From positions 1 to 36,013 of the forward strand of contig JAUWHR010000089.1 of NCBI GenBank assembly GCA_030605795.1: DNA of 36,013 nt, read 5' to 3'. The notes under the pieces are model-generated. The model saw only the letters and a list, made by a program, of their open reading frames with translations. It made no database searches and was not told where the DNA came from. This DNA comes from Anaerolineae bacterium. Lineage in GTDB: Bacteria; Chloroflexota; Anaerolineae; Anaerolineales; E44-bin32. Below, piece by piece: positions 2,811-28,219 of the stretch. Numbering within the stretch: the first letter of the stretch is position 1; each line of letters starts with the position of its first letter. Position numbers and translations under genes: made by a program.

Positions 2811-3893
2811 TTATCGTTGAATACGCACTAATCCACCCTCTGCGTAAGCACGCACCTGTTCCAGGGTCGCCATCGTAGTATCACCCGGGAAGGTTGTTAT
2901 GAGCGCGCCATGCGCCCACCCTAACTTGAGTGCATCTTCGGGTTCTTCTCCGGTAAGTAGACTAAAAAAGAAGCCGGAGGCGAAGCCATCTCCACCACCA
3001 ACGCGGTCAAAAACATGGAGCTCGCAGGTTGGTGAGGTATACGCCTTTCCATTAATCCATGCAACCGCTCCCCAGCTATGATGACTGGTAGAGTGGACTT
3101 CGCGCAATGTCGTCGCGACGACCTTTACCCGCGGATGCTTATCTACTACCTTATCAATCATCCTAAGAAACGTAGTTGGATCAAGCTTTGATTTGGCAGT
3201 CACTTCCGGGCCCGGGATCCCAAGACCCAATTGCAAATCTTCCTCATTTCCGCAGAGCACGTCTACATTCTCTACAATCCGGTCGAGCGTAGACGAAGCT
3301 TGTTCATGCCCACCCCAGATATTCCACAACTTGGCGCGATAATTCAAATCGAAAGATGTCACCGCACCGGAAGCCTTGGCGGCTTGCATGCCTTCGATAA
3401 TCAACTCGCCTGTCGTTTCAGATAATGCAGCAAAAATACCCCCACTGTGGAACCAGCGCACCCCTCTTGAAAAGATCGTATTCCAATCTATATCACCGGG
3501 TTTAAGTTGAGCTGCCGCTTCGTTGGAGCGGTTGTAAAAAACGACCGGGGCTCGCACGCCAAAACCGCGATCGCTGTAGACAGTTGCCATGTTTGGCCCA
3601 TTCACACCGTTGTGTTTGAAGTGTTTGTAGAAAGGTTTGACCCCCATCGCCCTAACCCGCTCTGCGATCAGATCACCAATGGGATAGTCAACCATCGCCG
3701 TGATGATGCCCGTTCGCAAGCGAAAGCAATCAGCTAGGTTGGCAGCAACGTTATACTCGCCTCCGCTAACATGAATTTGCGCTTTCATTGCTTTTCGGAA
3801 AGGAACGGTTCCGGGATCCAAACGATGGATTAACGCGCCAAGGGAAACCAGGTCCAACTCACCTTCTTGTCGAATATTCAGACCGTACATCAT
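2811..3893 (-). CDS. kdgK: PfkB-family sugar kinase, probably 2-keto-3-deoxygluconate kinase
   Basis: Ribokinase-like cytoplasmic kinase, 360 residues from the chosen start. Seen: GGEYNVAANLA near residues 44-54 (sugar-binding glycine motif), DLNYRAKLW at about 182-190, as is common in KDG kinases, and the catalytic segment DRVGGGDGFASG with the base Asp302. The expected reaction is KDG plus ATP to KDPG. An upstream ATG at 3920 exists, but an AAAGGAGGG Shine-Dalgarno lies between it and the tandem ATGs at 3893 and 3890, so I start at 3893; 3890 is equally possible. It is the last gene of the leftward operon after gnd. No KDPG aldolase is visible in the window. Other PfkB substrates, such as fructose or 5-dehydro-2-deoxygluconate, cannot be excluded. 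Confidence 0.85.
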   Translation of the reverse strand: MMYGLNIRQEGELDLVSLGALIHRLDPGTVPFRKAMKAQIHVSGGEYNVAANLADCFRLRTGIITAMVDYPIGDLIAERVRAMGVKPFYKHFKHNGVNGPNMATVYSDRGFGVRAPVVFYNRSNEAAAQLKPGDIDWNTIFSRGVRWFHSGGIFAALSETTGELIIEGMQAAKASGAVTSFDLNYRAKLWNIWGGHEQASSTLDRIVENVDVLCGNEEDLQLGLGIPGPEVTAKSKLDPTTFLRMIDKVVDKHPRVKVVATTLREVHSTSHHSWGAVAWINGKAYTSPTCELHVFDRVGGGDGFASGFFFSLLTGEEPEDALKLGWAHGALITTFPGDTTMATLEQVRAYAEGGLVRIQR

Positions 3894-3946
3894 GCTTCCC
3901 TCCTTTGGATAATTTGCCATGCGAAGATACTTTTTCCAGATACCCT

Positions 3947-5395
3947 TTAGGAAACCTCATGTGACTTCGCAGTCACATCGCCCTTATTTACAGTCCAGTT
4001 TGTGTGAAAAGTACCTTCGCAATCTACCCGCTGATAGGTATGTGCACCGAAGTAATCTCGCTGGGCCTGCGTGAGATTGGCCGGCAGCCGCTCGCTCCGA
4101 TAAGCATCGAAATACGCCAACGAGGCGCTCAGCGCGAGCACCGGGATCCCTATATCCACAGCGGTTTGCACCAAGAAGCGCCATGCACTCTGTCGGGATT
4201 CGACGGCCGAACGGAAAGCATCATCAAGAAGCAGGTTAACCAGTGATGGATCGCGTTCATATGCCGTCATGATGTCGCCCAAAAGGCTGGCGCGGATGAT
4301 GCACCCTGCCCGCCAGATTTTCGCAATGTCGTGCAAGCGAAAATCGTATCCATATTCCTCCGATGCCGTCTTGAGCAAACCAAAGCCCTGGGCATAGGAG
4401 ATAATCTTGCTGGTGTAGAGAGCTTGACGGGCGGAGTCGATTAAGCGTCTCCGGTCGCCGTTGTATTGCGGAGTTGGTCCATGCAATACACGACTAGCCA
4501 GAACGCGCTGAGTTTTCAGGCTGGAGAGAATGCGGCTCTCAACGGCGGCATTGATGGTTGGGATAGGGGCGCCCACATCCAGCGCGTTCTGGCTGGTCCA
4601 TTTCCCGGTACCTTTTTGCTTTGCCTCATCGAGAATCAGGTCCACCAGGGGACGTTCCGTCTCGCGATCTGTTTTGGAAAAGATATCTGCGGTGATCTCA
4701 ATCAAGTACGACTTTAGCTCACCGTCATTCCATTCCGTAAAGATTGTGTGCAGATCTTCTGCAGAAAGTCCAAGACCCCGGTGAAGCACATCATAGATTT
4801 CAGCGATCAACTGCATGTCGCCGTATTCGATTCCGTTATGCACCATCTTCACATAGTGACCTGCCCCGCGTGGACCCATATACTCCACACAGGGAGTTCC
4901 ATCTTCGGCTTTCGCAGCAATCGCACGAAATATTGGACCGATGGAATCCCATGCCACGCGCTGTCCACCGGGCATTAGACTTGGGCCCCATAACGCCCCC
5001 TCCTCCCCTCCTGAGACACCGGAACCAATGAAATTAATGTCTTCTGCCTCCAGTTCTTTGTTTCTACGCTCGGTATCCTGGAAATACGAGTTTCCGCCAT
5101 CGATAAGGATGTCTCCTGGTTCAAGATGGGGTTTTAGAGTCTTGATGGCGCTATCCACCGGATCGCCAGCCGGTACCATCATCAAAATTGTGCGGGGCTT
5201 AACCAATGAATCAATTAGTGCGGATGGAGATTCAACACCGATGATATTCTTGCCTGCTGCCGGGCCTTCCATGAAGGCCTTCGTTTTTTCTTTATCCAGA
5301 TCGTAGCAGACCACCAGGTAACCATTTCGCTCAATGTTCAAGGCCAGGTTGTGCCCCATAACTCCCAGCCCGACAACCCCGATTTCGAAATCCAT
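3947..5395 (-). CDS. gnd: 6-phosphogluconate dehydrogenase, decarboxylating
   Basis: Cytoplasmic enzyme that oxidises and decarboxylates 6-phosphogluconate to ribulose 5-phosphate, giving NAD(P)H. At 482 residues it is full length for the long bacterial form. Seen: the Rossmann motif GVVGLGVMG at residues 6-14, the substrate motif SGVSGGEEGA at 125-134, and the catalytic segment KMVHNGIE with Lys183 and Glu190, matching family numbering. The C-terminal RLPANLTQAQRDYFGAHTY block contributes to the active site across the dimer. A GGAGAG ribosome site precedes the ATG. It lies between the SDR gene and KDG kinase in one leftward unit, so it probably links the island to pentose phosphates together with the RpiB-like and transketolase genes. 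Confidence 0.95.
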   Translation of the reverse strand: MDFEIGVVGLGVMGHNLALNIERNGYLVVCYDLDKEKTKAFMEGPAAGKNIIGVESPSALIDSLVKPRTILMMVPAGDPVDSAIKTLKPHLEPGDILIDGGNSYFQDTERRNKELEAEDINFIGSGVSGGEEGALWGPSLMPGGQRVAWDSIGPIFRAIAAKAEDGTPCVEYMGPRGAGHYVKMVHNGIEYGDMQLIAEIYDVLHRGLGLSAEDLHTIFTEWNDGELKSYLIEITADIFSKTDRETERPLVDLILDEAKQKGTGKWTSQNALDVGAPIPTINAAVESRILSSLKTQRVLASRVLHGPTPQYNGDRRRLIDSARQALYTSKIISYAQGFGLLKTASEEYGYDFRLHDIAKIWRAGCIIRASLLGDIMTAYERDPSLVNLLLDDAFRSAVESRQSAWRFLVQTAVDIGIPVLALSASLAYFDAYRSERLPANLTQAQRDYFGAHTYQRVDCEGTFHTNWTVNKGDVTAKSHEVS

Positions 5396-5614
5396 GCCTG
5401 TCTCTCCTATCCCTCAAGCGGAGGGCTTCCGAGCACCTTTTCATTTACTGCCTCTGACAATCCCTCCGCCTTCGCTCCCCAGAGAATCATATTTTTTACC
5501 CGCAACAGCCATTGACCTCAGCAATCAAGAGGCTATCGCACACACCGTTTTCATTGATCAAGAAGACTTTTGTTTAATCAGTAAGTGGTACAGACTCGCC
5601 ATTATGCCATCGAG
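5396..5614 (-). other. 219-base intergenic spacer within the leftward operon
   Basis: No convincing gene is present. On the minus strand it holds only very short frames, and the gnd ribosome site at its end. An 8-base inverted repeat (GCGGAGGG at 5418-5425 with CCCTCCGC at 5462-5469) encloses a 36-base loop. It has no T tract, so I do not call a terminator; its role, if any, is unknown. Confidence 0.3.
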
Positions 5615-6379
5615 TTAGGTCCCCAGCATGCCGCCATCCACCGGGAAGATCACGCCACTGACATAATCTGAGGCCGGTGAGCAAAGGAACAAGAGCGGGC
5701 CACAAAGATCTTCAGGGGTACCCCACCGCCCAAGAGGGATTCGAGCCAGGATGCGTGGATATCTGACAGGATCCGCTTTTACTGCTGCCGTCATTTTCGT
5801 ATCTATATAGCCAGGTGCAATGGCATTGACCGTTACACCTCTAGACGCCCATTCATTGGAGAACGATTTCGTGATCTGGGCGACGCCTGCTTTGCTCGCG
5901 GCGTACGCTGGTATAGTAAAGCCGCCAGTAAAACTTTGCATCGATGCGATGTTAACGATTTTCCCATACCCCTTCGTCAGCATTATCCGCCCAGCCATTT
6001 GGCAAAGTAGAAATACAGAGGTGAGATTGATCTCAATAACCTCGTCCCAATCTGAGATTGGGAATTCCTCAGCCCTATGCCTGCGCTGAATACCCTGCGC
6101 GTTCACAAGGATATCGACTGTCTTTAACAACCGGACAGCTTCATCAAAACCTTGTGCCAAATCACCCCTATCAGCGAGATTAACCTTAACCCCATGAACT
6201 TTGGCTTTGTCCGGAATCGACCAATCATTCACCTTCTCATGAAGATTTTCGATGATGTCTAGCACTACAACTTCTACACCAGCGTCACGCAGTGCAGCAA
6301 CCATACTACGCCCCAGATCTCCAGCACCGCCGGAGATGATTGCCTTCTTGCCAGATATATCAAAAGGATTTGAGGTCAT
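5615..6379 (-). CDS. Short-chain dehydrogenase, KduD / gluconate 5-dehydrogenase-like
   Basis: Classical SDR of 254 residues, NAD(P)-dependent and cytoplasmic. Seen: the nucleotide motif SGGAGDLG at 16-23, Asn118, and the catalytic Ser146, Tyr159 and Lys163 in SMQSF and YAASK, followed by NAIAPGYIDT and a DYVSG C-terminal block. The segments GIQRRH, SMQSF and NEWASRGVTVNAIAPGY resemble both 2-dehydro-3-deoxy-gluconate 5-dehydrogenase (KduD) and gluconate 5-dehydrogenase. The usual NNAG motif reads NAQG. An ATG at 6415 opens the frame, but a run of eight Gs forms a ribosome site just before the ATG at 6379, which I prefer. The neighbours (KDG kinase, gnd, KduI/IolB-like) support a role in keto-sugar-acid metabolism. 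Confidence 0.85.
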   Translation of the reverse strand: MTSNPFDISGKKAIISGGAGDLGRSMVAALRDAGVEVVVLDIIENLHEKVNDWSIPDKAKVHGVKVNLADRGDLAQGFDEAVRLLKTVDILVNAQGIQRRHRAEEFPISDWDEVIEINLTSVFLLCQMAGRIMLTKGYGKIVNIASMQSFTGGFTIPAYAASKAGVAQITKSFSNEWASRGVTVNAIAPGYIDTKMTAAVKADPVRYPRILARIPLGRWGTPEDLCGPLLFLCSPASDYVSGVIFPVDGGMLGT

Positions 6380-6545
6380 TCGTTCCCCCCCCTTTTTATC
6401 ATTCCCATTCAGCATATAGTCTCTTCCTAACCTTAAAGTAATTGAATAATGTTGAACTGAAGAACACTAGAAAAATATAAATTGTTGAAATTCGAAAGCA
6501 CTAATATTCTTATCAACATGCGCCCATATAGCTCATGCGAGTCTA

Positions 6546-7445
6546 CTACCTGGGCTTACGAGCATTAATTGACGCACGGTCTTGAACAAGTGACAGTAGG
6601 CCAGAGTGATCGTATTCACCACGCCCCGAGAGTACCATTTCCTTGAACATCTCGTGGACAATGGCGGTAACCGATAGCGACACACCATAATCCTGCCCGG
6701 CGGAAATCGCAATCCGTAAATCCTTGTAGTGCAGACGACAGCGGAAACCCGGCTCAAAATCTCCTTCCGCCATTCGCATGCCGCGATTCTCTAACACACC
6801 GCAACGCGCCAAGCCGCCACTGAGGACCTGAACGATCTTTGCAGGGTCTACACCGGCCTTAGAGCCAAGCGTTAGCGCTTCTGCTAGACCAGCAATTGTG
6901 ACGCCGACTAGTATCTGATTGCATGCCTTAACTATCTGACCCGCGCCATTTTCACCACATAACACGATATTTTTTCCCAAGACACGTAAGATAGGCAACA
7001 TCGTATCAAAGGTCTCCTGCTTACCACCAACCATAATCGAGAGTGTGCCCTTCTGTGCCCCCACATCACCACCGCTGACCGGCGCATCAAGAGCTTCGAA
7101 ACCCGCATTTGCCGCAGTTTCAGCTATACGCTTTGCCATTAAAGGAGAGATTGTTGACATATCGATAAGCGTTGAGCCTTCCTGGATGCCTCCCAGTACG
7201 CCCTCCAACCCAAAGACAACCTGCTCAACATCCTGAGTATCGGGTAGCATAGTAATGATAACACGCGCGCGGGATGCCACATCCTTTGGGGAAACGCCAC
7301 GCTCTGCGCTCCGGGCAACAAGTGCCTCCTCGGGTTTAGAGTCTATGTCGTACACCACTAGTTCGTAGCCTGCTTCGAGCAGGCGGATTGCCATGGGACG
7401 TCCCATAATGCCAAGGCCTATAAAGCCAACCACAGGTTTAGGCAT
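6546..7445 (-). CDS. 3-hydroxyacid dehydrogenase, tartronate semialdehyde reductase-like
   Basis: Beta-hydroxyacid dehydrogenase of 299 residues, the usual GarR/GlxR/MmsB length. Seen: the Rossmann motif GFIGLGIMG at 7-15, the substrate-binding DAPVSGG at 120-126, and the catalytic Lys173 in KACNQI. GarR reduces tartronate semialdehyde to D-glycerate, while relatives act on 3-hydroxyisobutyrate or other short hydroxyacids; the sequence alone does not choose between them. A GGAGGGA ribosome site precedes the ATG. It is the first gene of the leftward unit driven by the divergent promoter near 7.55 kb, with a leader of about 77 bases. The 6416-6545 gap between this gene and the SDR is AT-rich and shows no gene. 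Confidence 0.9.
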   Translation of the reverse strand: MPKPVVGFIGLGIMGRPMAIRLLEAGYELVVYDIDSKPEEALVARSAERGVSPKDVASRARVIITMLPDTQDVEQVVFGLEGVLGGIQEGSTLIDMSTISPLMAKRIAETAANAGFEALDAPVSGGDVGAQKGTLSIMVGGKQETFDTMLPILRVLGKNIVLCGENGAGQIVKACNQILVGVTIAGLAEALTLGSKAGVDPAKIVQVLSGGLARCGVLENRGMRMAEGDFEPGFRCRLHYKDLRIAISAGQDYGVSLSVTAIVHEMFKEMVLSGRGEYDHSGLLSLVQDRASINARKPR

Positions 7446-7528: not shown

Positions 7529-7557
7529 ATGGTAGCAAAGAAAAGACCCATTGTCAA
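7529..7557 (-). promoter_or_regulatory. Sigma70-type promoter of the leftward operon
   Basis: On the minus strand, TTGACA (7552-7557) is followed by exactly 17 bases and then TACCAT (7529-7534). The -35 box is perfect and the -10 box matches four of six consensus positions. The -35 lies inside the palindrome at 7550-7575, so a protein bound there would block RNA polymerase. Transcription would start near 7522, ahead of the hydroxyacid dehydrogenase gene. Confidence 0.65.
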
Positions 7558-7575
7558 CGGTTAACTGTTGACAAT
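7550..7575. promoter_or_regulatory. 26-bp palindromic operator shared by two divergent promoters
   Basis: The arms ATTGTCAAC and GTTGACAAT are perfect reverse complements around the core GGTTAACT. Only one base pair (positions 10 and 17) breaks full symmetry. Each arm contains one of the two divergent -35 boxes. The half-site recurs at 28241-28249 over the promoter of the binding-protein gene. A GntR/FCD regulator encoded at 22308-23042 is the likely binder; this is inference from co-location and motif sharing. Confidence 0.75.
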
Positions 7576-7596
7576 GCGATGATGTCATGCTACATT
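7568..7596 (+). promoter_or_regulatory. Sigma70-type promoter of the rightward operon
   Basis: TTGACA (7568-7573), a 17-base spacer and TACATT (7591-7596) form a good promoter. The expected start is near 7603, giving a leader of about 44 bases before the GTG of the isomerase gene. The -35 is inside the right arm of the palindrome, mirroring the leftward promoter. Confidence 0.65.
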
Positions 7597-7646: not shown

Positions 7647-8471
7647 GTGTGCTATCTTTGCCCAGCGAAGACCCTTGTCGAAGGGCCCACGCTCATTATT
7701 GCTGCGCCCCAATCTGAATTGCGTTACCTGGCGCTAGAGCGATTGCTCCTGAGCACGAAGGGAGCGACATACGTTGCTCACACCCAGACCCATGAGATGG
7801 TGATCGACTTACTAGGTGGCGTCTGCGCCTTGACGCTAAAGGGAGAGAGGGGGGACACGCGGTATGAGAAAGTGGGCCAGCGCGCCAATCCTTTTTCAGG
7901 GCCGCCAACCATGGTTTACATTCCGCGCAACACGGAAGTGGCCATCAAGTGTCTTATCAGTCCTTTAAACGCCGTCATCGTGCGCGCCCCAAGTCGACAA
8001 GACAATGCCCCGATGCTAATCAAAGCCAAGGACACTACCCGTCAATCCTTCGGGCGCGACAACTGGAAGCGTGACGTCTACCCATGCATCGGTTTGAATG
8101 TGAACGCTGACCGGATCATGATGGGTGAAACGCACACACCATCAGGTAACTGGAGCAGTTTCCCACCTCACAAACACGATCAGGATAAGCCGCCCGAAGT
8201 GATCAGCGAGGAAATCTATCATTTCCTTATCACCCCTCCCCATGGCTTTGCTATGCAGTATTTGTGGACCGCACCGGGTACCCCCCAACCAATCAATGAG
8301 GTCTATCCGCTGCACAACGGCGATACTGTCGCCATCCCGCGTGGCTACCACCCGACAGTCGTTGCACCAGGCTTTCGCATGGTGACTGTGTGGGCATTCG
8401 CGGGTGAGTCACGTAGCTGGGGTGGTTGGGCTGTAGACCCGACCTTTGCTGAGTTATTGGAGGAATCATAA
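7647..8471 (+). CDS. iolB: KduI/IolB-family isomerase (5-deoxy-glucuronate isomerase-like cupin)
   Basis: Bicupin sugar-acid isomerase, 274 residues, cytoplasmic. The diagnostic stretch GETHTPSGNWSSFPPHKHD at 160-178 supplies the His175 and His177 metal ligands; the EEIYHF segment at 188-193 and GYHP later complete the typical site. IolB converts 5-deoxy-glucuronate to 5-dehydro-2-deoxygluconate in inositol breakdown, and KduI acts on 5-keto-4-deoxyuronate. The gene symbol reflects the IolB-type motif, not a proven substrate. No IolG, IolE, IolD or IolC equivalent is clear here. The start is a GTG at 7647, preceded by GGAAAGG at 9 bases. It is the first gene of the rightward unit. Confidence 0.85.
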   Translation: MCYLCPAKTLVEGPTLIIAAPQSELRYLALERLLLSTKGATYVAHTQTHEMVIDLLGGVCALTLKGERGDTRYEKVGQRANPFSGPPTMVYIPRNTEVAIKCLISPLNAVIVRAPSRQDNAPMLIKAKDTTRQSFGRDNWKRDVYPCIGLNVNADRIMMGETHTPSGNWSSFPPHKHDQDKPPEVISEEIYHFLITPPHGFAMQYLWTAPGTPQPINEVYPLHNGDTVAIPRGYHPTVVAPGFRMVTVWAFAGESRSWGGWAVDPTFAELLEES

Positions 8472-8501
8472 CTATCTGGCCTTATAAGAGGACGGTACGT
8501 C

Positions 8502-9365
8502 ATGAGCAAACGAGAGTACATCCCGCTAACATCTGAGCGCATCAGGGAACTGACCCTCAAAGCCAATGACATACGGCGCGAACTGGTAAAGATGTTCGGA
8601 ATTGCTGGCGGCGGTCATTTCGGCGGGTCACTATCTGCGGTAGAAATCGTCGCCGCTCTTTATTTCGACGTGTTGCGCATGAGCCCCAACGACCCTAACT
8701 GGCCTAACCGCGATAGATTTATTCTAAGCAAAGGCCATGCCTCCCCCGCTATGTATGCTGCGCTTTGTGACCTGGGTTTTTTCCCGCGCTCAGTGCTAGA
8801 TAACTTTGAGAAACCAGGCAACCCGCTGACCATGCATCCCAATATGCACAAAGTACCTGGCGTTGAGGCTAGCACCGGCTCTTTGGGGCATGGTCTCCCC
8901 ATCGGGGTGGGAATCTCTCTGGGTGCTAGACTAGACGGACGTGACTACCGCACATTTGTGTTAATGGGAGACGGTGAGATACAAGCAGGTTCAGTCTGGG
9001 AAGCCGTGATGTGTGCTGCTCATTATAAGCTGGATAACTTAGTAGCCATTGTAGACCGCAACCGTTTGAGTTGCGACGGCCTTATTGCTGAATTACAGTG
9101 CCAAGATCCTCTCCTACCGCGCTGGGAAGCTTTTTCTTGGAAAGGACGCGAGGTGGATGGGCACAGTGTAGGTGAGGTAGCAGCCGCGTTGCGCGCAGTC
9201 CCCTACGAACCAGGCAAACCGTCGGTGCTCATCGCTAATACGGTCAAAGGTAAGGGAATCTCATTTATGGAGAATAAGCCGAGTTTCCACCGCGCCAATA
9301 TCAGCCCTGAGCAAACGCAACAAGCTCTCGCCGAAATAGCCACGCGGCGGGAGGAATGGTCATGA
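8502..9365 (+). CDS. Transketolase, N-terminal subunit
   Basis: Split transketolase A subunit, 287 residues, carrying the thiamine diphosphate pyrophosphate-binding half. Seen: GHFGGSLS at 38-45, SKGHASPA at 76-83, GSLGHGLP at 126-133, and the ThDP/Mg motif GDGEIQAGS at 156-164 with Asn187 about 30 residues later. Together with the next gene it would transfer two-carbon units between ketose and aldose phosphates in the cytoplasm; some split pairs in catabolic islands act on other keto sugars. Its stop overlaps the next start (ATGA at 9362-9365), so the two subunits are probably translationally coupled. The upstream gene ends 30 bases before. Confidence 0.92.
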   Translation: MSKREYIPLTSERIRELTLKANDIRRELVKMFGIAGGGHFGGSLSAVEIVAALYFDVLRMSPNDPNWPNRDRFILSKGHASPAMYAALCDLGFFPRSVLDNFEKPGNPLTMHPNMHKVPGVEASTGSLGHGLPIGVGISLGARLDGRDYRTFVLMGDGEIQAGSVWEAVMCAAHYKLDNLVAIVDRNRLSCDGLIAELQCQDPLLPRWEAFSWKGREVDGHSVGEVAAALRAVPYEPGKPSVLIANTVKGKGISFMENKPSFHRANISPEQTQQALAEIATRREEWS

Positions 9366-10357
9366 GCAAAGAACCGATCATCTATCACTTGGCTAAGGAC
9401 GAACAGTATGAAGACTTAGATATTGAAAAAGCCTTGACGCGGGAGGCGTGGAGCGTGGCCCTGGCCGAGATGGCGGAAGAACGCCCTGAGATTGTCGTGC
9501 TCTCCGCTGACCTGATCGGAGCCACACTTGCCTGCCGCTTTGCAGATCGATATCCAGAACGCAGTTTTAACATAGGCGTGGCCGAGCAAGATTTGATTGG
9601 TGTAGCCGCTGGGTTGGCGTTAACAGGTAAAATCCCGGTGGTTGCGACGTTCAGCGTGTTCCTGCTAATGCGCGCCTGCGAGCAAGTCCGCACCGACATC
9701 TGCTATCCTAACCTGAATGTCAAACTCATCGGCACAGCCAGCGGATTAAGCTTCGGCTTGGGTGGTGTAACGCATGCCACTACCGAGGACATTGCCATTG
9801 CCCGCGCTCTGCCTAATATGGTCGTGATTGTTCCAGCAGACTACCTTGAGACAGCCCAGGCTATGCACGCCGCCATGGCGCGCCAGGGGCCGGTCTTTAT
9901 CCGGGTGGGACGATCAGCCGAACCGGTAGTGTACGCCACCGAACCTTCCTTTGAAATAGGTAAAGCCCACCAACTCCGCGAGGGCAATGATGTAACGCTA
10001 ATAGGGTGTGGGGTAATGGTCTTTGAGTCGTTGCGCGCCGCCGACATTTTGCGAGACCAGGGTACCAGCGCACGTGTGATTGACATGCACACCATTAAGC
10101 CATTGGATGCTGAAGTTGTGCTAACGGCCGCGCGCGAAACCAAAGCAATGCTCACTGTTGAAGAGCATACCATCATCGGCGGGCTGGGGAGTGCGGTAGC
10201 AGAGGTGCTGGCGGAGGCAGGCGTTGAAGTGCGTTTCAAACGCATTGGTTTACCCGACATCTTCGCCACCTCCGGCAGGCCCGACTACCTTCGCGAACTC
10301 TACGGGTTAAATGGAAAAGCCATCGCTGAACATGCCACAGCTCTTTTGGATAAATAA
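9362..10357 (+). CDS. Transketolase, C-terminal subunit
   Basis: Split transketolase B subunit of about 331 residues, with the pyrimidine-binding and C-terminal domains. Seen: the segment LSADLIGAT, the NIGVAEQDLIGVAAGLA motif with the glutamate that activates ThDP, THATTEDIA, and a C-terminal domain with IDMHTIKPLD and VEEHTIIGGLGS. An in-frame ATG lies at 9356, but the GGGAGG ribosome site (9349-9354) is then too close. The ATG at 9362 has a 7-base spacing and couples with the stop of the A subunit. It is the partner of the preceding gene. Confidence 0.92.
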   Translation: MSKEPIIYHLAKDEQYEDLDIEKALTREAWSVALAEMAEERPEIVVLSADLIGATLACRFADRYPERSFNIGVAEQDLIGVAAGLALTGKIPVVATFSVFLLMRACEQVRTDICYPNLNVKLIGTASGLSFGLGGVTHATTEDIAIARALPNMVVIVPADYLETAQAMHAAMARQGPVFIRVGRSAEPVVYATEPSFEIGKAHQLREGNDVTLIGCGVMVFESLRAADILRDQGTSARVIDMHTIKPLDAEVVLTAARETKAMLTVEEHTIIGGLGSAVAEVLAEAGVEVRFKRIGLPDIFATSGRPDYLRELYGLNGKAIAEHATALLDK

Positions 10358-10364
10358 CGATCAC

Positions 10365-10415
10365 TTCTCCTTAGCGAGGAGAATCACGAGCCTGAAGTCC
10401 CCAATACAGGACTTC
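10365..10415 (+). other. Two small hairpins between transketolase and the racemase-like gene
   Basis: TTCTCC/GGAGAA (10365-10370 and 10378-10383, 7-base loop) is followed by GAAGTCC/GGACTTC (10394-10400 and 10409-10415, 8-base loop). Neither has a T tract, so they are more likely transcript-processing or attenuation structures inside a 115-base intergenic gap than full terminators. The function is not established. Confidence 0.35.
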
Positions 10416-10472
10416 CTTGATGTCTTCATAGACCTTTGCAATCCGTAAGCCCAATGCTACAGGTGTGTTGCA

Positions 10473-11282
10473 ATGACTAACCTTGGATCGATTGACACCA
10501 TTAGACTGTTTTCCGACTTCCTGCAGGTGACCGGGGTCCCGCACCTGGGACCAGAACAAGAGGGTGAGCCGGACCTACTGGGCAAGCGGCTTGGCCTTCT
10601 TAACAGCGGTTCATGGATCACACTATGGTCGAGCTACTTTGGGCGGTTGTACCTGCCAGGTGTTCATTTGGTCAACGTTGGCAACGAGGCCATTCAGCTC
10701 AACTTTATGCAAGCCCACGCAGAAGGACGACCCACTCCTCCGCAGTCCAATATTGATGCCTTTAAGCATTATGCTCGTGATTTGGTCGAACTAGCTCAAG
10801 TTGACGCTGTACTTATCACCTGTTCCACCATGAACCGCTCCTATCCACAGATTCAGGCCGCGCTGAAACCCTATGGGGTACCGGTCGTCCAGATTGACCG
10901 ACCAATGATGGAACGAGCAGTGGGGCACGGCGGGCGTGTGTTGGTCGTAGCCACCCACGGTCCGACCGTAGATAACACTCAGGCATTGCTGCGCGAGACC
11001 GCCGAAGAGCTAGGTCGCAGAGTGATGTTCTCCGGCACCACCATCGAGGAAGCCTGGCACTGCTTAGCCGTGGGCGATGTGCTGGGCCATAATCAGCTAC
11101 TCGCTAAAGCGATCCACGACCATCTTAGCAAGGAGGATATTAGTAGTGTCGTTCTGGCGCAGCTTTCGATGACCGTGTTTTTGCTAACTTACCCGGACCC
11201 GGTAGCCAGTATTGGTGTACCAGTCTTCACCAGCGGACAATGCGGTTTTGAATACATGAGGGAGTTGCTAGTCGAAAAATGA
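10473..11282 (+). CDS. Asp/Glu/hydantoin racemase-superfamily protein lacking the second catalytic Cys
   Basis: Cytoplasmic protein of 269 residues. The first family motif is LITCSTMN with Cys117, and RVLVVATHGPTVDNT (about 155-169) follows as in Asp/Glu racemases. In two-base racemases a second cysteine lies in a VLxC-type segment; here the matching segment reads VVLAQLSM with Gln230. Cys197 and the Cys in SGQCGFEY lie elsewhere. A one-cysteine enzyme would not racemise by the usual mechanism, so an isomerase, decarboxylase-like or unknown activity is possible. The start has AGGTG at 7 bases. It lies between transketolase and a UroD-like gene in the rightward operon. Confidence 0.7.
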   Translation: MTNLGSIDTIRLFSDFLQVTGVPHLGPEQEGEPDLLGKRLGLLNSGSWITLWSSYFGRLYLPGVHLVNVGNEAIQLNFMQAHAEGRPTPPQSNIDAFKHYARDLVELAQVDAVLITCSTMNRSYPQIQAALKPYGVPVVQIDRPMMERAVGHGGRVLVVATHGPTVDNTQALLRETAEELGRRVMFSGTTIEEAWHCLAVGDVLGHNQLLAKAIHDHLSKEDISSVVLAQLSMTVFLLTYPDPVASIGVPVFTSGQCGFEYMRELLVEK

Positions 11283-11319
11283 CGGCGAGTCTCATCGACG
11301 AACATTGGATCCGAAGAAG

Positions 11320-12393
11320 ATGATGACGCCTCGCCAGCGCGCTATGGCCGCATTAAAACACCGATTGCCTGACGTGATACCAGCTTATGTGCGCAACGTT
11401 ATAGACTGGGAGCAGCATGCAATCTACTTTGGCGTTACTACTCTCGGTGAGTTAATGGAACGCCTCGGTAACACTATCATAAGTTTCACTCCCGCGTATG
11501 TCTATACCGAACCACCTGATCTCCCGATTGAACACTCTCCAGGCATGCCTCTTATTTGGGGCATACCCGAGGACATGATTTTAACCTACACCGACTCAAA
11601 ACCTCGCCCTCTTGCCGACGCCGAGACAGTCGCTGACATCGAGGCCTATGATTGGCCATTGGCTTCAGATAGCGCTTGGGACTTTACAGGAATGCGCAAG
11701 CGCCTACAGAAAGACAACACACACGCCCGTATGAGCCCCAGTTGGACGCCGGTATTTTCACAGTTGTGTGAACTCTTCGGTATGGAACGGGCGATGGTTA
11801 ATTTGCATGTCAACCGCCCAGTAATTGAGGCTGCCTTGGCCCATCTAGATAAATTCTACACCAAATTCTATGACCACCTGCTGGATATCTGTGGCGACCA
11901 GTTGGAAATCTTTGGTCTAGGAGATGACTTCGCAGACAACAGGGGTTTGCTTCTCCGACCCGACATGTGGCGCGATTTATTCAAGCCATTGTACGCTAAG
12001 TGGCTGGGGATGGCCAAGGCGAGAGGTCTAGTGACACTCATGCATTGCTGTGGTGTGATTACGGAAGTGTTGCCCGACCTGATCGATAGTGGCCTGGACG
12101 CCTGGCAGACCGTCCAGACCCACTTGCCTGGCCAAGAAGCAGAGCGCATCAAGGCAGAATATGGCAAGCACCTAGCCTTTGTGGGTGCTATCGATACCAC
12201 CAACATCCTTGGTTTCGCAAGCCCGAAGGAAGTACGAAAGCATGTGCGCAAACAGATCCATGCTCTAGGCAGAGAAGGCGGCTACATCTGCGCTCCCGAT
12301 CACACCATCATGGCAGAAGTACCATCCGAAAACTTGGCCGCAATGTATGAAGCTATTGCAGAGTTTAGGGAACTAGATTACACCTTACTTTAG
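11320..12393 (+). CDS. UroD-family protein (corrinoid methyltransferase-like), Zn motif intact
   Basis: TIM-barrel protein of the uroporphyrinogen decarboxylase/MtaA superfamily, about 357 residues. The N terminus RQRAMAALKHRLPD is typical of the methyltransferase branch. The MHCCG motif and a later Cys in GGYICAPDH supply the H-x-C...C zinc ligands used by MtaA/MtbA-type methyltransferases to bind a thiol, so this is the best candidate for an active methyltransferase among the four paralogues in the window. No haem biosynthesis genes are nearby, and true UroD is unlikely. A TTG at 11305 could extend the N terminus by five residues, but the family start favours the tandem ATGs at 11320 and 11323. 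The partner corrinoid protein is encoded at 15765-16424 on the other strand. Confidence 0.8.
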   Translation: MMTPRQRAMAALKHRLPDVIPAYVRNVIDWEQHAIYFGVTTLGELMERLGNTIISFTPAYVYTEPPDLPIEHSPGMPLIWGIPEDMILTYTDSKPRPLADAETVADIEAYDWPLASDSAWDFTGMRKRLQKDNTHARMSPSWTPVFSQLCELFGMERAMVNLHVNRPVIEAALAHLDKFYTKFYDHLLDICGDQLEIFGLGDDFADNRGLLLRPDMWRDLFKPLYAKWLGMAKARGLVTLMHCCGVITEVLPDLIDSGLDAWQTVQTHLPGQEAERIKAEYGKHLAFVGAIDTTNILGFASPKEVRKHVRKQIHALGREGGYICAPDHTIMAEVPSENLAAMYEAIAEFRELDYTLL

Positions 12394-12489
12394 GTTTATG
12401 TTTTATGTGGACCCATCGATAACCCCAACTATAAAAGGAGGATGACGGCACTTTACCACAGACAACGGAATCTCCGCCGCAAAATTCTT

Positions 12490-13719
12490 ATGAGTGAGCA
12501 AGTTCTATTCCCCCGGCTTGATCAAGATATGGATGAAGGCATCCTGGTTTCCTGGCTGGTGAGCACAGGCGATCGGGTGCACGCAGGCGACGAAATAGCA
12601 GAGATAGAGACAGCAAAGGTGACCACCACAATAAGTAGCCCAATCGATGGTGTCGTGCTGTCAATCCTGGTTGAAGAAAGCGATTTTGTTCCGGTCGGGA
12701 CCACTATTGCAATTATCGGTGAAGAAGGTGATGAAGTGACTGACCTTCGTGATCCTGATACCACTCCAACCTCAATAGAGTCAGGGGCCGTACCCGCTCC
12801 GTCGGTCGCATCGGTGGTCGCTCCAGAAGGAAGACAGCAGATTCCCATTACACAACGAGCAACAGCGCTTCCGGTAGATCGATCGTCATGGACGCGCCCA
12901 CACAACCAGTCTCCCAGGGCGCGCTTTGAGACACAGATGAAAGACCTGGATTTGGGAGAGGCCATGGCAGCATCAGTGGAGGATCGTTTTGCAGCCCAGC
13001 CAGCTGTTCCCTCTCCTAAAGTGAAAGAAGGCCGTAGAGTTAGCCTAAGCAGTATCCGACGAGCCACCATCAGGACTGTTGAGGCATCGTGGCAAATTCC
13101 ACAATTTTCGATCGAGTTGGAGATCTATACCAACCCCATGAAACACACGCTGGCGAAGACTCGGCAGATGTTGCCTGGTTCGGGGATCAATATTACGGAT
13201 ATCCTAGCGATAGCGATGACGAGAGCCATTCGCAATGTACCCGAGGTCAATGCCTGGTTCGAAGGGGTCGCAATCCAATACTTCGACCACGTCGATCTGA
13301 ACCTCATGATTCATACAGATCATGGCCTATTCGCACCGGCGCTAAGGTCAATTCAAAGTGCAAGTATTGCCGAAGTTGCAGCACAACGACAGGGGCTTGT
13401 AGAGGCAGCCAGGGTGGGTACTCTCGCGTCGAGAGATCTGAAACCTGGTACGATTTCCCTTTCCAATCTGGGCATGTACAAAATCGATCGTTTCAACGCA
13501 TTAATCTACCCACCTCAAGTGGCCGTCCTGGCAGTCGGACGCATACGGGAGGAAGAGCATAACTCACCGATGTGGATGACTTTGTCAGTTGATCACCGGG
13601 CAGTAGATGGGGTTACTGCTGCGCGATATTTAGAGACGCTGGGTGCGATTTTGTCTGAACCTTTACTTCTCATAGGTCAAAATCTCTCGGGGAGCGAGGA
13701 AAAACATGATCGGCGTTAA
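12490..13719 (+). CDS. Dihydrolipoamide acyltransferase (E2) of a 2-oxo acid dehydrogenase complex
   Basis: E2 core enzyme, about 409 residues. An N-terminal lipoyl domain (about 1-78) carries the lipoyl lysine Lys43 in ETAKVTT. A flexible Ser/Pro/Val linker follows. The catalytic domain ends with DHRAVDG, which holds the His and Asp of the active site. Between them the E1/E3-binding domain is hard to recognise: SPRARFETQMKDLDL is only a weak trace and lacks the usual GTGxxGR turn. An upstream ATG at 12442 gives 16 more residues, but its GGAGG touches the ATG with no spacing. I start at 12490 because the lipoyl domain then begins at once, though no ribosome site is clear there. It overlaps the E1 gene by 14 bases. 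Confidence 0.85.
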   Translation: MSEQVLFPRLDQDMDEGILVSWLVSTGDRVHAGDEIAEIETAKVTTTISSPIDGVVLSILVEESDFVPVGTTIAIIGEEGDEVTDLRDPDTTPTSIESGAVPAPSVASVVAPEGRQQIPITQRATALPVDRSSWTRPHNQSPRARFETQMKDLDLGEAMAASVEDRFAAQPAVPSPKVKEGRRVSLSSIRRATIRTVEASWQIPQFSIELEIYTNPMKHTLAKTRQMLPGSGINITDILAIAMTRAIRNVPEVNAWFEGVAIQYFDHVDLNLMIHTDHGLFAPALRSIQSASIAEVAAQRQGLVEAARVGTLASRDLKPGTISLSNLGMYKIDRFNALIYPPQVAVLAVGRIREEEHNSPMWMTLSVDHRAVDGVTAARYLETLGAILSEPLLLIGQNLSGSEEKHDRR

Positions 13720-15694
13720 AGACAGACCAGCTAGAGAGTGGATCACCATATACAAGAAGATGCAACTCGTCCGGCGCTTTGAAGAAAAGATGGTAGCTTT
13801 GTACAGGGCCGGTGAGTTGCCGGGTTTCCTCCACTCATCGGCTGGCCAAGAAGCAGTCGCCATAGGCATGACACATGACCTCCGAAAGGACGACTTCATG
13901 GCAAGTACGCACCGCGGGCACGGCCATATCATAGGAAAAGGAGCCAATCTCGACCGGATGTTTGCAGAGCTGTACGGAAAAGAGAGCGGGTATTGCCGAG
14001 GGCGAGGCGGCTCCATGCACATCATGCATAGGGAAAGCGGAATCTTAGGCGCTAACGGCATTGTAGGCGCATGTATCCCAATAGCCATCGGAGCCGGACT
14101 GACCATCCAGATCGAAGGTCGGGACAATGTTGTGGTTTGTTTCTTTGGCGATGGTGCCGTAAACACCGGAGCATTCCATGAGGCGATGAACCTGGGTGGC
14201 TTATGGCGCCTACCTGTTATCTACGTCTGCGAGAACAATCAGTACGCTCTGTCTACCAATTGGAGCAAAACGCTTCCCATCGACGATCTAACTGCCCGTG
14301 GTGCTTCATATGGTATACCGACAACAGTGATCGACGGGAATGATGTGGCGGCGTGCTTGCATGCAGCTGCCGAAGCTATCAGCCGAGCTCGGTCTGGCGA
14401 TGGGCCCACATTGATCCAAGCCAATACCTACCGCTGGTCTGGTCACCATGTCGGGGATACGGCCCCTTACCGAACCGCTGAAGAAGTAGAATCATGGAAA
14501 CGGAATGACCCCATAATTTTCATAGAAAAGATACTAATTGAAGCCAACGTGCTGACTGAGAATGAGGCCAAAGCGATCATTGCTGAGGTGGATGAAGAGA
14601 TTGAAGCGGCAGTGGAATATGGTCGCAGCGCAAAAGAACCTGATCCTACTGAGGTATTGCGGGATGTGTACGCGCCTGAGAAACCTCAACCCGAGCCATT
14701 TCCCAACATTGAGCGAGTTCAACAGGGGACAGTCCGTGATGCCCTACAGCTAGCTTTACGCCACGCGATGGAGCTCGACCAGGAGATTATCGTCCTAGGA
14801 GAAGATGTGGCTGACCCCTTTGGGGGACCCTACAGAATCACACTTGGGTTATCAGAGCGATTCGGTGAGGATCGCGTGAGAAGCACACCGATATCTGAGT
14901 CGGCGATCGTAGGGGCTGCAATCGGAGCCGCGATGACCGGTAAGCGGCCAGTTGCGGAGATTATGTACATCGACTTCCTCACCATCCCGATGGACCAGAT
15001 TGTGAATCAGGCGTCGTTCATTCGATACATGTCAGGGGGGCAAGTTACACTCCCCATGGTGATCCGTACCATGGGAGGCGCGTGGCGCGGCTCAGCTGCT
15101 CAACATTCGAAGACGCTTGAAGCGTGGTTTGCCCACGTGCCGGGCTTGAAGATATTCGTTCCCTCCACCCCCACCGATGCATATTGGCTTTTGCGCAAAG
15201 CAATCGAAGACGATAGCCCTGTACTCTTCTGGGAACCGAATCTCCTTTACACATTCGAAGGCGAGATAAACCTGGATGGTCCTCCTGAAAACTTAGATCG
15301 CCCGGCAATCCGTCGCGCCGGGTCTGACGTTACGTTGGTCACGTGGGGTTATACAACCCGGATGGTGCTTGAAGCGGCGGAAGAACTAGCGTCTCATGGA
15401 ATCTCAGCAGAGGTCATCGACATGCGCTACCTCGCCCCCTTGCCCACCGAAGAAGTTGTGAAATCTGTGGCAAAAACCGGTCTATGCTGCATCGTTCATG
15501 AGGCATGGGAAATTGGCGGTCTCGGTGCGGAGATTGCCGCCCAGTTAGCCGATAAGGCGTTCTTCTACCTCGATGGACCGGTAAAACGTATTGGAGCTAA
15601 GCACTGTCCCCATCCGTTTGCTCCGGTGTTGGAGTGGGAAATGCTTCCATCGAAGGAGCGGATTATAGCAACAGTAAAGAATTGGTTCATATGA
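13706..15694 (+). CDS. Fused E1 alpha-beta subunit of a pyruvate/acetoin-type dehydrogenase
   Basis: Single 662-residue polypeptide joining the two E1 chains that are usually separate. Alpha part (about 1-325): SAGQEAVAIG, STHRGHGH, GRGGSMHI, and the ThDP motif GDGAVNTGAFHEA at 148-160 with Asn177/178. Beta part (about 340-662): VLGEDVADPFGGPYRIT, RSTPISESAIVGAAIGAA, and a C-terminal EAWEIGGLGAEIA. It decarboxylates a 2-oxo acid such as pyruvate, or cleaves acetoin, and loads the acyl group onto the E2 encoded just upstream, to make acyl-CoA in the cytoplasm. Stop and start overlap by 14 bases, so translation is coupled. No E3 (dihydrolipoamide dehydrogenase) gene is in the window, so E3 must be supplied from elsewhere. 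It is the last gene of the rightward unit. Confidence 0.92.
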   Translation: MIGVKDRPAREWITIYKKMQLVRRFEEKMVALYRAGELPGFLHSSAGQEAVAIGMTHDLRKDDFMASTHRGHGHIIGKGANLDRMFAELYGKESGYCRGRGGSMHIMHRESGILGANGIVGACIPIAIGAGLTIQIEGRDNVVVCFFGDGAVNTGAFHEAMNLGGLWRLPVIYVCENNQYALSTNWSKTLPIDDLTARGASYGIPTTVIDGNDVAACLHAAAEAISRARSGDGPTLIQANTYRWSGHHVGDTAPYRTAEEVESWKRNDPIIFIEKILIEANVLTENEAKAIIAEVDEEIEAAVEYGRSAKEPDPTEVLRDVYAPEKPQPEPFPNIERVQQGTVRDALQLALRHAMELDQEIIVLGEDVADPFGGPYRITLGLSERFGEDRVRSTPISESAIVGAAIGAAMTGKRPVAEIMYIDFLTIPMDQIVNQASFIRYMSGGQVTLPMVIRTMGGAWRGSAAQHSKTLEAWFAHVPGLKIFVPSTPTDAYWLLRKAIEDDSPVLFWEPNLLYTFEGEINLDGPPENLDRPAIRRAGSDVTLVTWGYTTRMVLEAAEELASHGISAEVIDMRYLAPLPTEEVVKSVAKTGLCCIVHEAWEIGGLGAEIAAQLADKAFFYLDGPVKRIGAKHCPHPFAPVLEWEMLPSKERIIATVKNWFI

Positions 15695-15764: not shown

Positions 15765-16424
15765 CTAAGATGGCATAATGATTTCGCTGTCTACCCACCC
15801 TATCAGGGTCTTAGCCAGAGTGGTAGCGCTGCTGGCGTCCGGCGCGCAGCCATCTGCACCGATCTCATCCGCATAAGCCGGCGTGACCGGCGCCCCACCG
15901 ATGATGATCTTGACCTTTTCACGCAGACCAGCACCGGTTATGGCTTCGATGACGCCCTTCATATTCCCCATCGTGGTTGTCAGAAGAGCCGACATGCCAA
16001 CGATTTGGACATCTTCCCTGGCAGCCTCGACAAACCTCTCGGGAGTCACGTCAATGCCAAGGTCTACAACCTCGAAACCGGCGCCCTCTAACATCATCGC
16101 GACCAGGTTCTTACCGATGTCGTGCAGGTCGCCTTTAACTGTTCCCAGGACAATTTTGCCGACAGGCTCAACGCCACTCTCGGCCAACATCGGCTTGATC
16201 AGGTTCAACCCCGCCTTCATCGCGCGAGCAGCAATCAGCATCTCCGGGACGTAAAGTTCCTGGCGTTCGAAACGCTCACCCACTTCAGCCATAGCAGGGA
16301 TGAGGCCTTGCATAAGGATTGCCTCGGGGTCGAAGTTCTCATCCAACGCCCGCTTAACCCCTACCTCGGTGGTCTCGAGGTTGCCGTCGATCACGCTCTG
16401 TTTAATGTCGTCTAATGTTGCCAT
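15765..16424 (-). CDS. Corrinoid (B12-binding) methyltransferase carrier protein, MtaC/MttC type
   Basis: Cytoplasmic methyl carrier of 219 residues, the usual length for cognate corrinoid proteins. A helical B12-binding-2 cap (about 1-85) has the segment FERQELYVPEMLIAARAM. The Rossmann-like B12 domain has the DxHxxG motif as GDLHDIGKN with His101 as lower cobalt ligand, then IVGMSALLTTTMGNM and the GGAPVT motif. In methylotrophs and acetogens such a protein accepts a methyl group from a substrate-specific methyltransferase and passes it to a second one. Here it is the last gene of a 13-gene leftward unit with three UroD-like genes, with a fourth UroD-like gene in the convergent operon. No reductive activase is present in the window. 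Confidence 0.92.
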   Translation of the reverse strand: MATLDDIKQSVIDGNLETTEVGVKRALDENFDPEAILMQGLIPAMAEVGERFERQELYVPEMLIAARAMKAGLNLIKPMLAESGVEPVGKIVLGTVKGDLHDIGKNLVAMMLEGAGFEVVDLGIDVTPERFVEAAREDVQIVGMSALLTTTMGNMKGVIEAITGAGLREKVKIIIGGAPVTPAYADEIGADGCAPDASSATTLAKTLIGWVDSEIIMPS

Positions 16425-16453
16425 ATGGTCTACTACTCCTTGCCTTTGAAAGG

Positions 16454-17272
16454 CTACACCTTTAGTAGCTTGTCCACATATTCGATAAAGTTACGCGAAG
16501 CCGTGTCATCGTCAGGTTGAGGTAACATCTCTCCCGACAGATAGCCCGTATAGCCTATCTGCTTGAGCGCTGCGATGATGGTTTTAAAATCAATATGCCC
16601 CATACCCGGCGCCAACCGGTTGCTATCAACCAGATGAAAGTGACGTAATCGATCATTGGCCATGTGAATGGCCTCCACAAACGACACTTCCTCGATGTTC
16701 ATGTGAAATGTGTCTAGCACCAGACCAAGGTTAGGAGCCCCTACATCATTAATGAAAGCCAGCGCATCCGCCGTCGTGTTCAAGAAATCAGTCTCATATC
16801 GATTAATCGCTTCTACTGTCAGGAATACGCGGCGCTCAGCCGCGTATTCGGCTACATCACGTGTGGCCTCCACAGCGATGTCATACTGAGCTTGGCGTGT
16901 AGCCTGATCAGTATCAAAGAAATTTCCACGTATGCTCCCCAGGACAACCTGCGCACCAATGCATGCCGCAAACCGGATATGTCCCTTCAGTCGATCTCGT
17001 ACCGCTCTTTGAATCTCAGGCCGAGTGTCTGCCAAGCTGAGACCATCCTCGAAGTAACTCTGACCTGTTCCAAAAGAAGGGACTTCCAGACCAAACTCCT
17101 CAGCCCAGCCAATAATGGCATCCTTATCAAGGTCGTCGGAGTCCCGCAGGTTGAGTTCGACGCCGTCGAAACCAAATTCGGCTGCCTTCTGCATCCCCCG
17201 GCGGAGGTTGCCGGTGTAAGACAAGGGCGCGAACTTCGACCTGGTAGGCGAGAGAGCTAGGCTTGTTTTCAT
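16454..17272 (-). CDS. Sugar phosphate isomerase/epimerase family TIM barrel, 5-keto-L-gluconate epimerase-like
   Basis: Xylose-isomerase-like TIM barrel of 272 residues. Metal-site residues are visible in family order: Glu154 in VEAINRYE, Asp187 in LDTFHMN, His213 in HFHLVDSN, and Glu248 in SGEM. The segments GTGQSY, NRYETDFLNT, DTFHMNIEEV and VDSNRLAPG resemble, from memory, the Thermotoga inositol-pathway epimerase that turns 5-keto-L-gluconate into tagaturonate. Hydroxypyruvate isomerase or D-tagatose 3-epimerase types remain possible. AAGGAG precedes the ATG by about five bases. It sits 8 bases after the RpiB-like gene. The product would feed a keto-sugar-acid route that could end in KDG, the likely substrate of the kinase at 2811-3893. 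Confidence 0.8.
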   Translation of the reverse strand: MKTSLALSPTRSKFAPLSYTGNLRRGMQKAAEFGFDGVELNLRDSDDLDKDAIIGWAEEFGLEVPSFGTGQSYFEDGLSLADTRPEIQRAVRDRLKGHIRFAACIGAQVVLGSIRGNFFDTDQATRQAQYDIAVEATRDVAEYAAERRVFLTVEAINRYETDFLNTTADALAFINDVGAPNLGLVLDTFHMNIEEVSFVEAIHMANDRLRHFHLVDSNRLAPGMGHIDFKTIIAALKQIGYTGYLSGEMLPQPDDDTASRNFIEYVDKLLKV

Positions 17273-17280
17273 ACCTCTCC

Positions 17281-17736
17281 TTATTCTTGTGCACGATCCT
17301 GATCTAAACGGGCAATCTTCTCCAAGCGCGGCTCATGGCGTCCTCCGTCATAGGGCGTCTTGAACCACAGTTCAACCAAATGCTTGGCATGCGGTAGGCT
17401 CACTACCCAAGCCCCCATCGCTAGAACGTTTGCATCATTATGTTCCCGGCTGAGCGTAGTAGTAAAAGCATCGTGACACAGCGCCGCGCGCACGCCAGGT
17501 ATCTTGTTAGCGGCGATGGATATACCAATACCCGTTCCACAAATTACAATACCCCGATCGGCCTCACCACCAACGACTGCCCTCCCTACAGCTTTAGCGA
17601 AGTCCGGATAGTCGTTCGATTCGTCCGAATTGGCTCCAAAATCAAGCACCTCGTGACCTAGCTCTTGCTCAATAAACTCGATTAGGCCTTGCTTCAATTT
17701 ATAGCCAACCCAATCTACACCAACTGCGATACGCAT
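17281..17736 (-). CDS. RpiB/LacAB-family sugar-phosphate isomerase with altered substrate-binding residue
   Basis: Cytoplasmic aldose-ketose phosphate isomerase of 151 residues, full length for RpiB. Seen: the active-site CGTGIGISIAANK loop (catalytic Cys and Thr), DYPDFA, and SREHNDANVLA with the His that opens the sugar ring; the C-terminal GGRHEPRL phosphate-binding arginines are present. The conserved N-terminal DH pair reads Asp8-Trp9, so the substrate-contacting His is replaced by Trp. RpiB proper converts ribose 5-phosphate and ribulose 5-phosphate; homologues act on erythrulose or allose phosphates. Trp9 argues for a substrate other than ribose 5-phosphate. A GAGAGG ribosome site lies close to the ATG. 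Confidence 0.85.
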   Translation of the reverse strand: MRIAVGVDWVGYKLKQGLIEFIEQELGHEVLDFGANSDESNDYPDFAKAVGRAVVGGEADRGIVICGTGIGISIAANKIPGVRAALCHDAFTTTLSREHNDANVLAMGAWVVSLPHAKHLVELWFKTPYDGGRHEPRLEKIARLDQDRAQE

Positions 17737-17770
17737 TGTCCTCTCTGTCCTCTCTTTGATGTGTAATCTA

Positions 17771-18643
17771 TTACCCTACCGCTAGAGACGGCCATAGTGA
17801 AGGAACTTGATCCATTCGAATAAACTGTGCGTCCAATTCTTCACTGACTCGACGTAGATCAGAGGCGAGGTCCGAGACCTTCCGTGGATCAATTGCGCCG
17901 GTTTCAAAATTTTGAATGTCGTAAGGATGTGTATCTAGTACCAGAAAAGCCCTTTCTCCCGCACCGTCAATTGCAACTCGCATACGATTCCATTCAATGA
18001 ATGGGGCGCAGGTAACGGGTACTTGTAGAAAGTGTCCTCGCGTGCTGGTAAAGTCTAGCCAATTGTGAGTATCATGCCGCCAGGGTGTCCCATTTAGCGG
18101 CACCATACTGTTATCGGTAAGGATTCCGCCCTCGTCCTTGTCCAGCCGTCGCCAGGGGCTTGGCATCTCTTTGTCGCAAACCATGCGCGCGTAAAGAGCT
18201 GTCTGAGGCCACACATCGCTGCACCACCTGTAACCTAACTCCTGCGCAGCCCGGTAAGCTGCCTTACTCTGCTGGAAACATCCATTGCGATGCGCTAGTA
18301 GGTGAACTTCCCGACCTGCGTTAGCGAAAAACTCGGCAACCTGCTGTCGTGATTGCCTCATCAGCGCAAAGATTTCTGTGTAGCTTACAGCAAAGTTGGT
18401 ATCAAGATGGTCGTGCATGCCGATTGTTTCACCGCTGTCGGCAAGGCTGAGCAGCAAATCGCCATATTGCTCGCTCCACATGAAGTCAATCTCGTTGATA
18501 AACCAGGTCGTTTTCCCGATAATGCCCAAGTCTGCATGGATACTCCGCATTGCCTCAACGCTAGCTCGTTGCTGGATTACGTCGCCCATGCGTAGGTCGC
18601 CATCGACTGTGACCAAAAAGTAAACCTGCTTATCTACCAACAC
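17771..18643 (-). CDS. Polysaccharide deacetylase (NodB/CE4)-like protein
   Basis: About 290 residues, with no signal peptide visible, so cytoplasmic. Three segments fit the NodB-fold metal site: TVDGDLRM near residue 12 in place of TFDD, IGMHDHLD near 75 in place of the HxxxH motif, and AHRNGCFQQSKAAYRAAQELGY near 117 in place of RxPxG. The motifs are divergent, so it may deacetylate or hydrolyse a small metabolite, or be non-catalytic; I cannot name a substrate. The start is a GTG at 18643 or the adjacent TTG, just after a GAGAGG. It lies between an RpiB-like and a UroD-like gene in the leftward unit. Confidence 0.55.
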   Translation of the reverse strand: MLVDKQVYFLVTVDGDLRMGDVIQQRASVEAMRSIHADLGIIGKTTWFINEIDFMWSEQYGDLLLSLADSGETIGMHDHLDTNFAVSYTEIFALMRQSRQQVAEFFANAGREVHLLAHRNGCFQQSKAAYRAAQELGYRWCSDVWPQTALYARMVCDKEMPSPWRRLDKDEGGILTDNSMVPLNGTPWRHDTHNWLDFTSTRGHFLQVPVTCAPFIEWNRMRVAIDGAGERAFLVLDTHPYDIQNFETGAIDPRKVSDLASDLRRVSEELDAQFIRMDQVPSLWPSLAVG

Positions 18644-18667
18644 TACCTCTCTCGCACTTGCTTCACC

Positions 18668-19900: not shown

Positions 19901-19914
19901 GCTTGTTTAGCCTC

Positions 19915-21069: not shown

Positions 21070-21090
21070 GCGTTCAACTCCTCAGATTAA

Positions 21091-22236: not shown

Positions 22237-22307
22237 GCTTAATACTCACCGAAGGGCTACAAGCTAGTTGCGGACTGTATTTTAAAATTGCAAAGGCATT
22301 TCTCTTA

Positions 22308-23042: not shown

Positions 23043-23140
23043 AATCGTATGACCTCGCGCTTATGATCTCTTAGGATAGAGCTTGCACACCTCATCAATG
23101 CTTTTTGAGCACCTTCGCTACGTCGGAGTGTAACTTTCTA

Positions 23141-23518: not shown

Positions 23519-23538
23519 CCTCGCCTCCATCTACTTTC

Positions 23539-24336: not shown

Positions 24337-24376
24337 GGGCTTTACCCCTTTCCATTCCACCAGCGCCATCCGTGTA

Positions 24377-25387: not shown

Positions 25388-25422
25388 CGAAACCTCCTCT
25401 TAATTAAGAATTAGTCGGTTTG

Positions 25423-26919: not shown

Positions 26920-26961
26920 CTCCTATCATGGTCATCAAACTTACGATAGGCACCTCAAATT

Positions 26962-26992: not shown

Positions 26993-27009
26993 GGTGTCGT
27001 GACTGGTTG

Positions 27010-28083: not shown

Positions 28084-28219
28084 TTCTTCCCTCCCAGGAT
28101 ATGTCAAATAGTGGCTTGGTCTGGTAATCACTAAGGCGGCTTGCAAAGCATAGTTTAACCAAATTACCTCCTTTCTTCATGTTGAATCTCTGAGATGATG
28201 TCAAGCGTCGATTATGAAA

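Follow-up and report, generated by a model that had tools for sequence, protein, structure and literature searches.

We found that, in a window of 36,013 nucleotides from an Anaerolineae bacterium (the whole stretch of DNA analysed here), the near-palindrome between two divergent catabolic operons consists of three GTNNAC boxes at a 7-bp period rather than being a simple dyad. Read outward with the adjoining A, the two outer boxes spell TTGACA, so that this element, operator 1, supplies the -35 boxes of two predicted divergent promoters. Based on the sequence and on comparison with related genomes, we propose that the palindrome is very probably the operator for the FCD-GntR regulator of the same cluster, which would act through the three boxes to repress three operons, its own among them, until an inducer releases it (Table 1). 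Without inducer, GntR dimers would cover operator 1 side by side, probably two or three of them in view of the three boxes, and keep RNA polymerase off both divergent promoters; GntR at the second site, operator 2, would occlude the transporter/gntR operon in the same way. Since operator 2 lies before the gntR operon, the system would be autoregulated. The inducer, probably a sugar acid or keto-sugar pathway intermediate, would bind the FCD domain, the DNA would be released, and all three operons would be switched on. The earlier note on this DNA had one bound regulator silencing both catabolic units at once: our comparative tests bear out a GntR-type operator common to both promoters, while the single bound regulator gives way to probably two or three dimers and the two operons become three.

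Table 1. Regulatory elements, regulator gene and operons of the catabolic cluster, in window coordinates
Feature	Position	Strand	Description
Operator 1 (putative)	7550..7575	.	Near-palindrome ATTGTCAACGGTTAACTGTTGACAAT
Operator 1 boxes	7553-7558, 7560-7565, 7567-7572		GTCAAC, GTTAAC, GTTGAC; period 7 bp
Leftward promoter (predicted)	7529..7557	-	TTGACA 7557-7552, 17-nt spacer ending TGC, TACCAT 7534-7529
Rightward promoter (predicted)	7568..7596	+	TTGACA 7568-7573, 17-nt spacer ending TGC, TACATT 7591-7596
Operator 2 (putative)	28241..28266	.	ATTGTCAACAGTTTACAGTTAACTGT; three GTNNAC boxes starting at 28244, 28251 and 28258; period 7 bp
ABC/gntR operon promoter (predicted)	28220..28248	-	TTGACA 28248-28243, 17-nt spacer ending TGC, TATGCT 28225-28220
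GntR + FCD regulator, FadR subfamily	22308..23042	-	Recognition motif SRGPVREAL; proposed repressor
Leftward operon	2811..7445	-	GarR-like dehydrogenase, SDR, 6-phosphogluconate dehydrogenase, PfkB/KDG-type kinase
Rightward operon	7647..15694	+	KduI/IolB-like isomerase, split transketolase, Asp/Glu racemase-like, URO-D-like, E2, fused E1
Third operon	15765..28146	-	Sugar ABC transporter, isochorismatase-like, gntR, three URO-D-like, deacetylase-like, RpiB, IolO-like epimerase, B12-binding-like protein

The 26-bp near-palindrome with a TTGACA on each strand had been described in the earlier note, and its letters and coordinates proved exact; the 7-bp periodicity of GTNNAC was absent from that description. 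The arms, 9 nt each, match perfectly, and a version widened to 28 bp (7549-7576) keeps 13 of its 14 pairs. No other zero-loop palindrome in the 36-kb window is as good, a comparable one appeared in 0 of 60 simulated 36-kb windows (order-1 Markov), and 0.02 matches to the arm pattern with up to 3 mismatches are expected from shuffles. Taken as a simple dyad with free spacing, TTGTCAAC-N3-20-GTTGACAA, the motif was found in 15 of 400 genomes and its reversed control about equally often. The arms alone are therefore not the conserved feature, and our operator claim rests on the three-box form, whose strict pattern occurs in 5 of 400 genomes and in none with the reversed control. An inverted repeat could also be an RNA hairpin or terminator, and a pattern scan did rate the palindrome terminator-like on the minus strand; however, its tail has no clean T run, and with both predicted starts downstream of it, it would be in neither transcript. 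We find this explanation hardly credible.

The predicted promoters fit an operator that overlaps them. Exact 17-base spacers to TACCAT on the left and TACATT on the right, as previously claimed, were both found, and in addition a TG lies one base upstream of each -10 box. Given the TTGACA, a -10 box with at least 4 of 6 matches at exactly 17 nt with the TG has a P of ~0.002 per side in shuffles, although the -10 boxes are modest in themselves (4 of 6 bases each). The leftward and rightward promoters are predicted to drive the operons transcribed from 7445 to 2811 and from 7647 to 15694, respectively. Weak -10 boxes would also suit an activator or dual site: GntR at -50..-31 would bring RNA polymerase to either or both of them, and a site near -41 could in principle activate. 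But the overlap of the site with a perfect -35 speaks against this, as do the extended -10 motifs of the promoters and the position of the array in many relatives, about +1..+20, which is classic for a repressor; we regard activation as improbable.

Repression by the cluster's own GntR would also account for operator 2. This is the sole further match of the operator pattern within the window, located before the leftward operon whose first gene encodes a sugar-binding protein and which includes gntR, and no third site of the same stringency was found in the 2.66-Mb genome assembly (~81% complete). Here TTGACA is kept solely in the operon-facing arm; the far arm, GTTAACTGT, has lost it and kept its GTNNAC box, so that all three boxes are retained. 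The -35 role is thus separable from the regulator role, and this is the arm pattern expected if GTNNAC serves the regulator and TTGACA serves the promoter. The third promoter, on the minus strand, has a layout identical to that of the divergent pair and was absent from the earlier note. Another regulator might bind these sites wholly or partly, most likely the FCD-GntR paralog of the same genome (G000:C93), with cross-regulation of two divergons. This paralog has 37% identity to the window GntR and the same SRGP motif, and its gntR/enolase-like divergon (L109:9536-9566) holds a 31-bp palindrome, AAATTGTCAACAGTAATATTGTTGACAATTT, with the same arms, TTGACA on both strands and TAGGAT at 17 and 18 nt. 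Its outer boxes, however, are 15 bp apart instead of 14 and the middle box is missing, while the genome's only two triple sites flank the window gntR regulon. Binding by the paralog is therefore conceivable but rather unlikely.

The proposed repressor had been called a GntR protein from its sequence, and profiles agree: PF07729 (FCD, 1.1e-25) and PF00392 (GntR, 9.7e-14) both score above their cut-offs. With an N-terminal GntR wHTH and a C-terminal FCD domain, it belongs to the FadR subfamily of GntR regulators; against the NanR subfamily (NCBIfam NF003011) it scores 54 bits, below the cut-off of 260. Both window sites have the GT-N2-3-AC palindromic core of FadR-subfamily operators, and they lie, as is usual for this subfamily, at putatively regulated promoters and before the regulator's own operon, as do the sites at the gntR operons of relatives. 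A search of the window GntR protein against genome contigs returned only two distant matches, Kaistia and Afipia. Its solved relatives by sequence include 7xp0, McbR and 6z74, the last of which we take to be Atu1419. As for the regulated genes, a sugar acid or keto-sugar is indicated by the KduI/IolB-, IolO- and GarR-like enzymes and the KDG-type kinase, and 6-phosphogluconate dehydrogenase, RpiB and the transketolase halves point the same way. The E1 and E2 genes of the rightward operon were assigned by reading the sequence, not by profile, and the third operon would be a single transcript judging from its small gaps.

A motif search of related genomes, which the earlier note had proposed, revealed that FCD-gntR loci of other genera and families also have the three-box array at their promoters. 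In a gene-blind pattern search of 151 genomes, palindromic triple sites lay beside GntR homologs in G137 and G090 and on the same contig as one in G013. In our protein search, 128 of the 301 genomes had GntR homologs; scanning around the best of these homologs gave triple sites at G131 and G048, and a 32-genome scan added G180, G244, G292 (where GTATACGGTATACCGTATAC lies ~2.3 kb upstream of gntR) and G201. In G201, which belongs to another family of the order, a 20-mer identical to window 28244-28263 (G201:C154, L135:5919) is located between divergent catabolic operons, aldolase/enolase-like on one side and E1/E2 on the other. A gntR homolog lay no more than 6 kb from the site cluster in 10 of 19 cases against 0.13 expected, a count that omits three heptamer-microsatellite-rich genomes and includes genomes first chosen by motif, and in 6 of 13 against 0.09 expected for genomes picked by gntR alone; both figures are approximate, as the clusters were tallied manually and the gntR numbers come from the protein search.

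The array is a feature of some members of this regulator group, not all, since the closest GntR homologs in family f14 are without triple arrays; some related loci have ordinary single palindromes. No triple array was found within ~9 kb of several closer GntR homologs (G101 and G135, 37-38% identity). In the flanks examined around IolB homologs in 24 other genomes, no triple site was found either, and synteny of the IolB/GarR divergon was rejected as the carrier of the switch, which thus follows gntR, not the enzyme. At FCD-gntR loci of another genus (L095:6124, L101:8446, L098:9412) we observed a different palindrome, ATTAATTGTTTAACAATTAAT, which is probably the operator of the GntR proteins of those loci.

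The intergenic DNA of the order contains scattered degenerate heptanucleotide repeats such as GTTCACT and TGTCAAC (L014, L015, L113; G055, G283, G105). The array could itself be a stretch of such a repeat with no regulatory role: (GTTCACT)n- or (TGTCAAC)n-like arrays occur away from gntR in G055, G283, G105, G081 and G033, and in the first three of these relatives heptanucleotide microsatellites mimic the array. The genome of the window, however, has just two array sites, and we rejected a microsatellite origin for them. More generally, the gntR-linked arrays are characterized by a three-box form, promoter registers that recur, box centres specific to a lineage and a strong association with gntR, which leaves the repeat explanation very improbable. 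The strict-pattern matches in G059 and G150, a heptamer repeat and a site inside coding sequence, had no gntR in the flanks examined and were set aside.

The registers and centres of the gntR-linked arrays are consistent with binding by their GntR proteins. For the 15 tabulated sites, sigma-70-like promoters put the array mostly at -50..-31, as at the three window promoters and the rightward promoter of G013 (the leftward one has it at -43..-24), or at roughly -4..+24, as in G137, G131, G048, G201, G180, G244 and G292; the promoters come from a best-match scan without its own shuffle control, so that the recurrence of a register counts for more than any one instance. Either position would be expected to block polymerase. 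In G013, from another genus of the same family, the array also holds the -35 elements of two divergent promoters, and together with the paralog's palindrome this indicates that the design is recurrent in the lineage. The three boxes within one site tend to change together. GTYRAC boxes (the window, G013, G137 and G090) go with the HTH residues SRGP, GTCGAC boxes (G131 and G048) with SRAP, and GTATAC boxes (G180, G244 and G292) with SRIS; the boxes of G201 have a mixed centre. Across FadR-subfamily regulators, a correlation has been reported between residue 39 and the bases at the operator centre (PMC4494728), and we infer that the residues after SR correspond to positions 39/40. The box centre is possibly read by these residues, a match that is supporting rather than conclusive, because it comes from only three lineages and is not independent of phylogeny.

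GT-N2-AC is the known core of FadR-subfamily GntR operators (PMC4494728), and our system resembles the divergons of this subfamily in that core and in one mid-intergenic site controlling both operons. In those divergons, extra boxes were reported 7-12 nt from the site centre (Suvorova et al. 2015, PMC4494728). They have one strong palindrome and a weaker half-site, whereas here there are three full GTNNAC boxes at an exact 7-bp period, the outer of which double as -35 elements. In E. coli, three NanR dimers bind a (GGTATA)3 operator cooperatively (PMC8012715). NanR is likewise an FCD-GntR of sugar-acid catabolism with three closely spaced boxes and several operons per regulator, but its boxes are direct repeats downstream of the polymerase-binding site, while each box here is near-palindromic and the site overlaps two -35 boxes; three direct GGTATA repeats are not present at operator 1. 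The Agrobacterium FCD regulator Atu1419 (VanR group) binds the operator ATGTATACAT; its dimer reads one 10-bp GT-N2-AC palindrome, also in a divergent region, but its single palindromes are 109-190 bp apart and a DNA-looping tetramer was proposed (PMC7797058), in contrast to the three abutting boxes here. GntR divergons and the three-repeat operator of NanR are thus known already; what appears to be new is the window's variant, in which the boxes would be the divergent -35s.

We give about even chances to a broader proposal, that FCD-GntR proteins of this order form a distinct operator class, binding three interlocked GTNNAC boxes at a 7-bp period as two or three dimers, with the boxes fused to divergent -35s in the family of the window. 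If true, one 26-bp element would be both an operator and a double promoter core, an economical layout in which the same bases serve as repressor boxes and as the -35s of two promoters. Such sharing would limit the evolution of either role and force joint control of both operons. It would also give a precise operator code for a GntR group in a little-studied order, by which regulons there could be predicted from sequence.

The gene on the other side of operator 2 is, as read from the sequence, a transposase/integrase-like ORF (28370-29056) that borders the cluster. Congeneric genomes are without the IolB-like gene and without any close GntR. Together, these two observations raise the possibility that the catabolic cluster is a mobile or accessory island.
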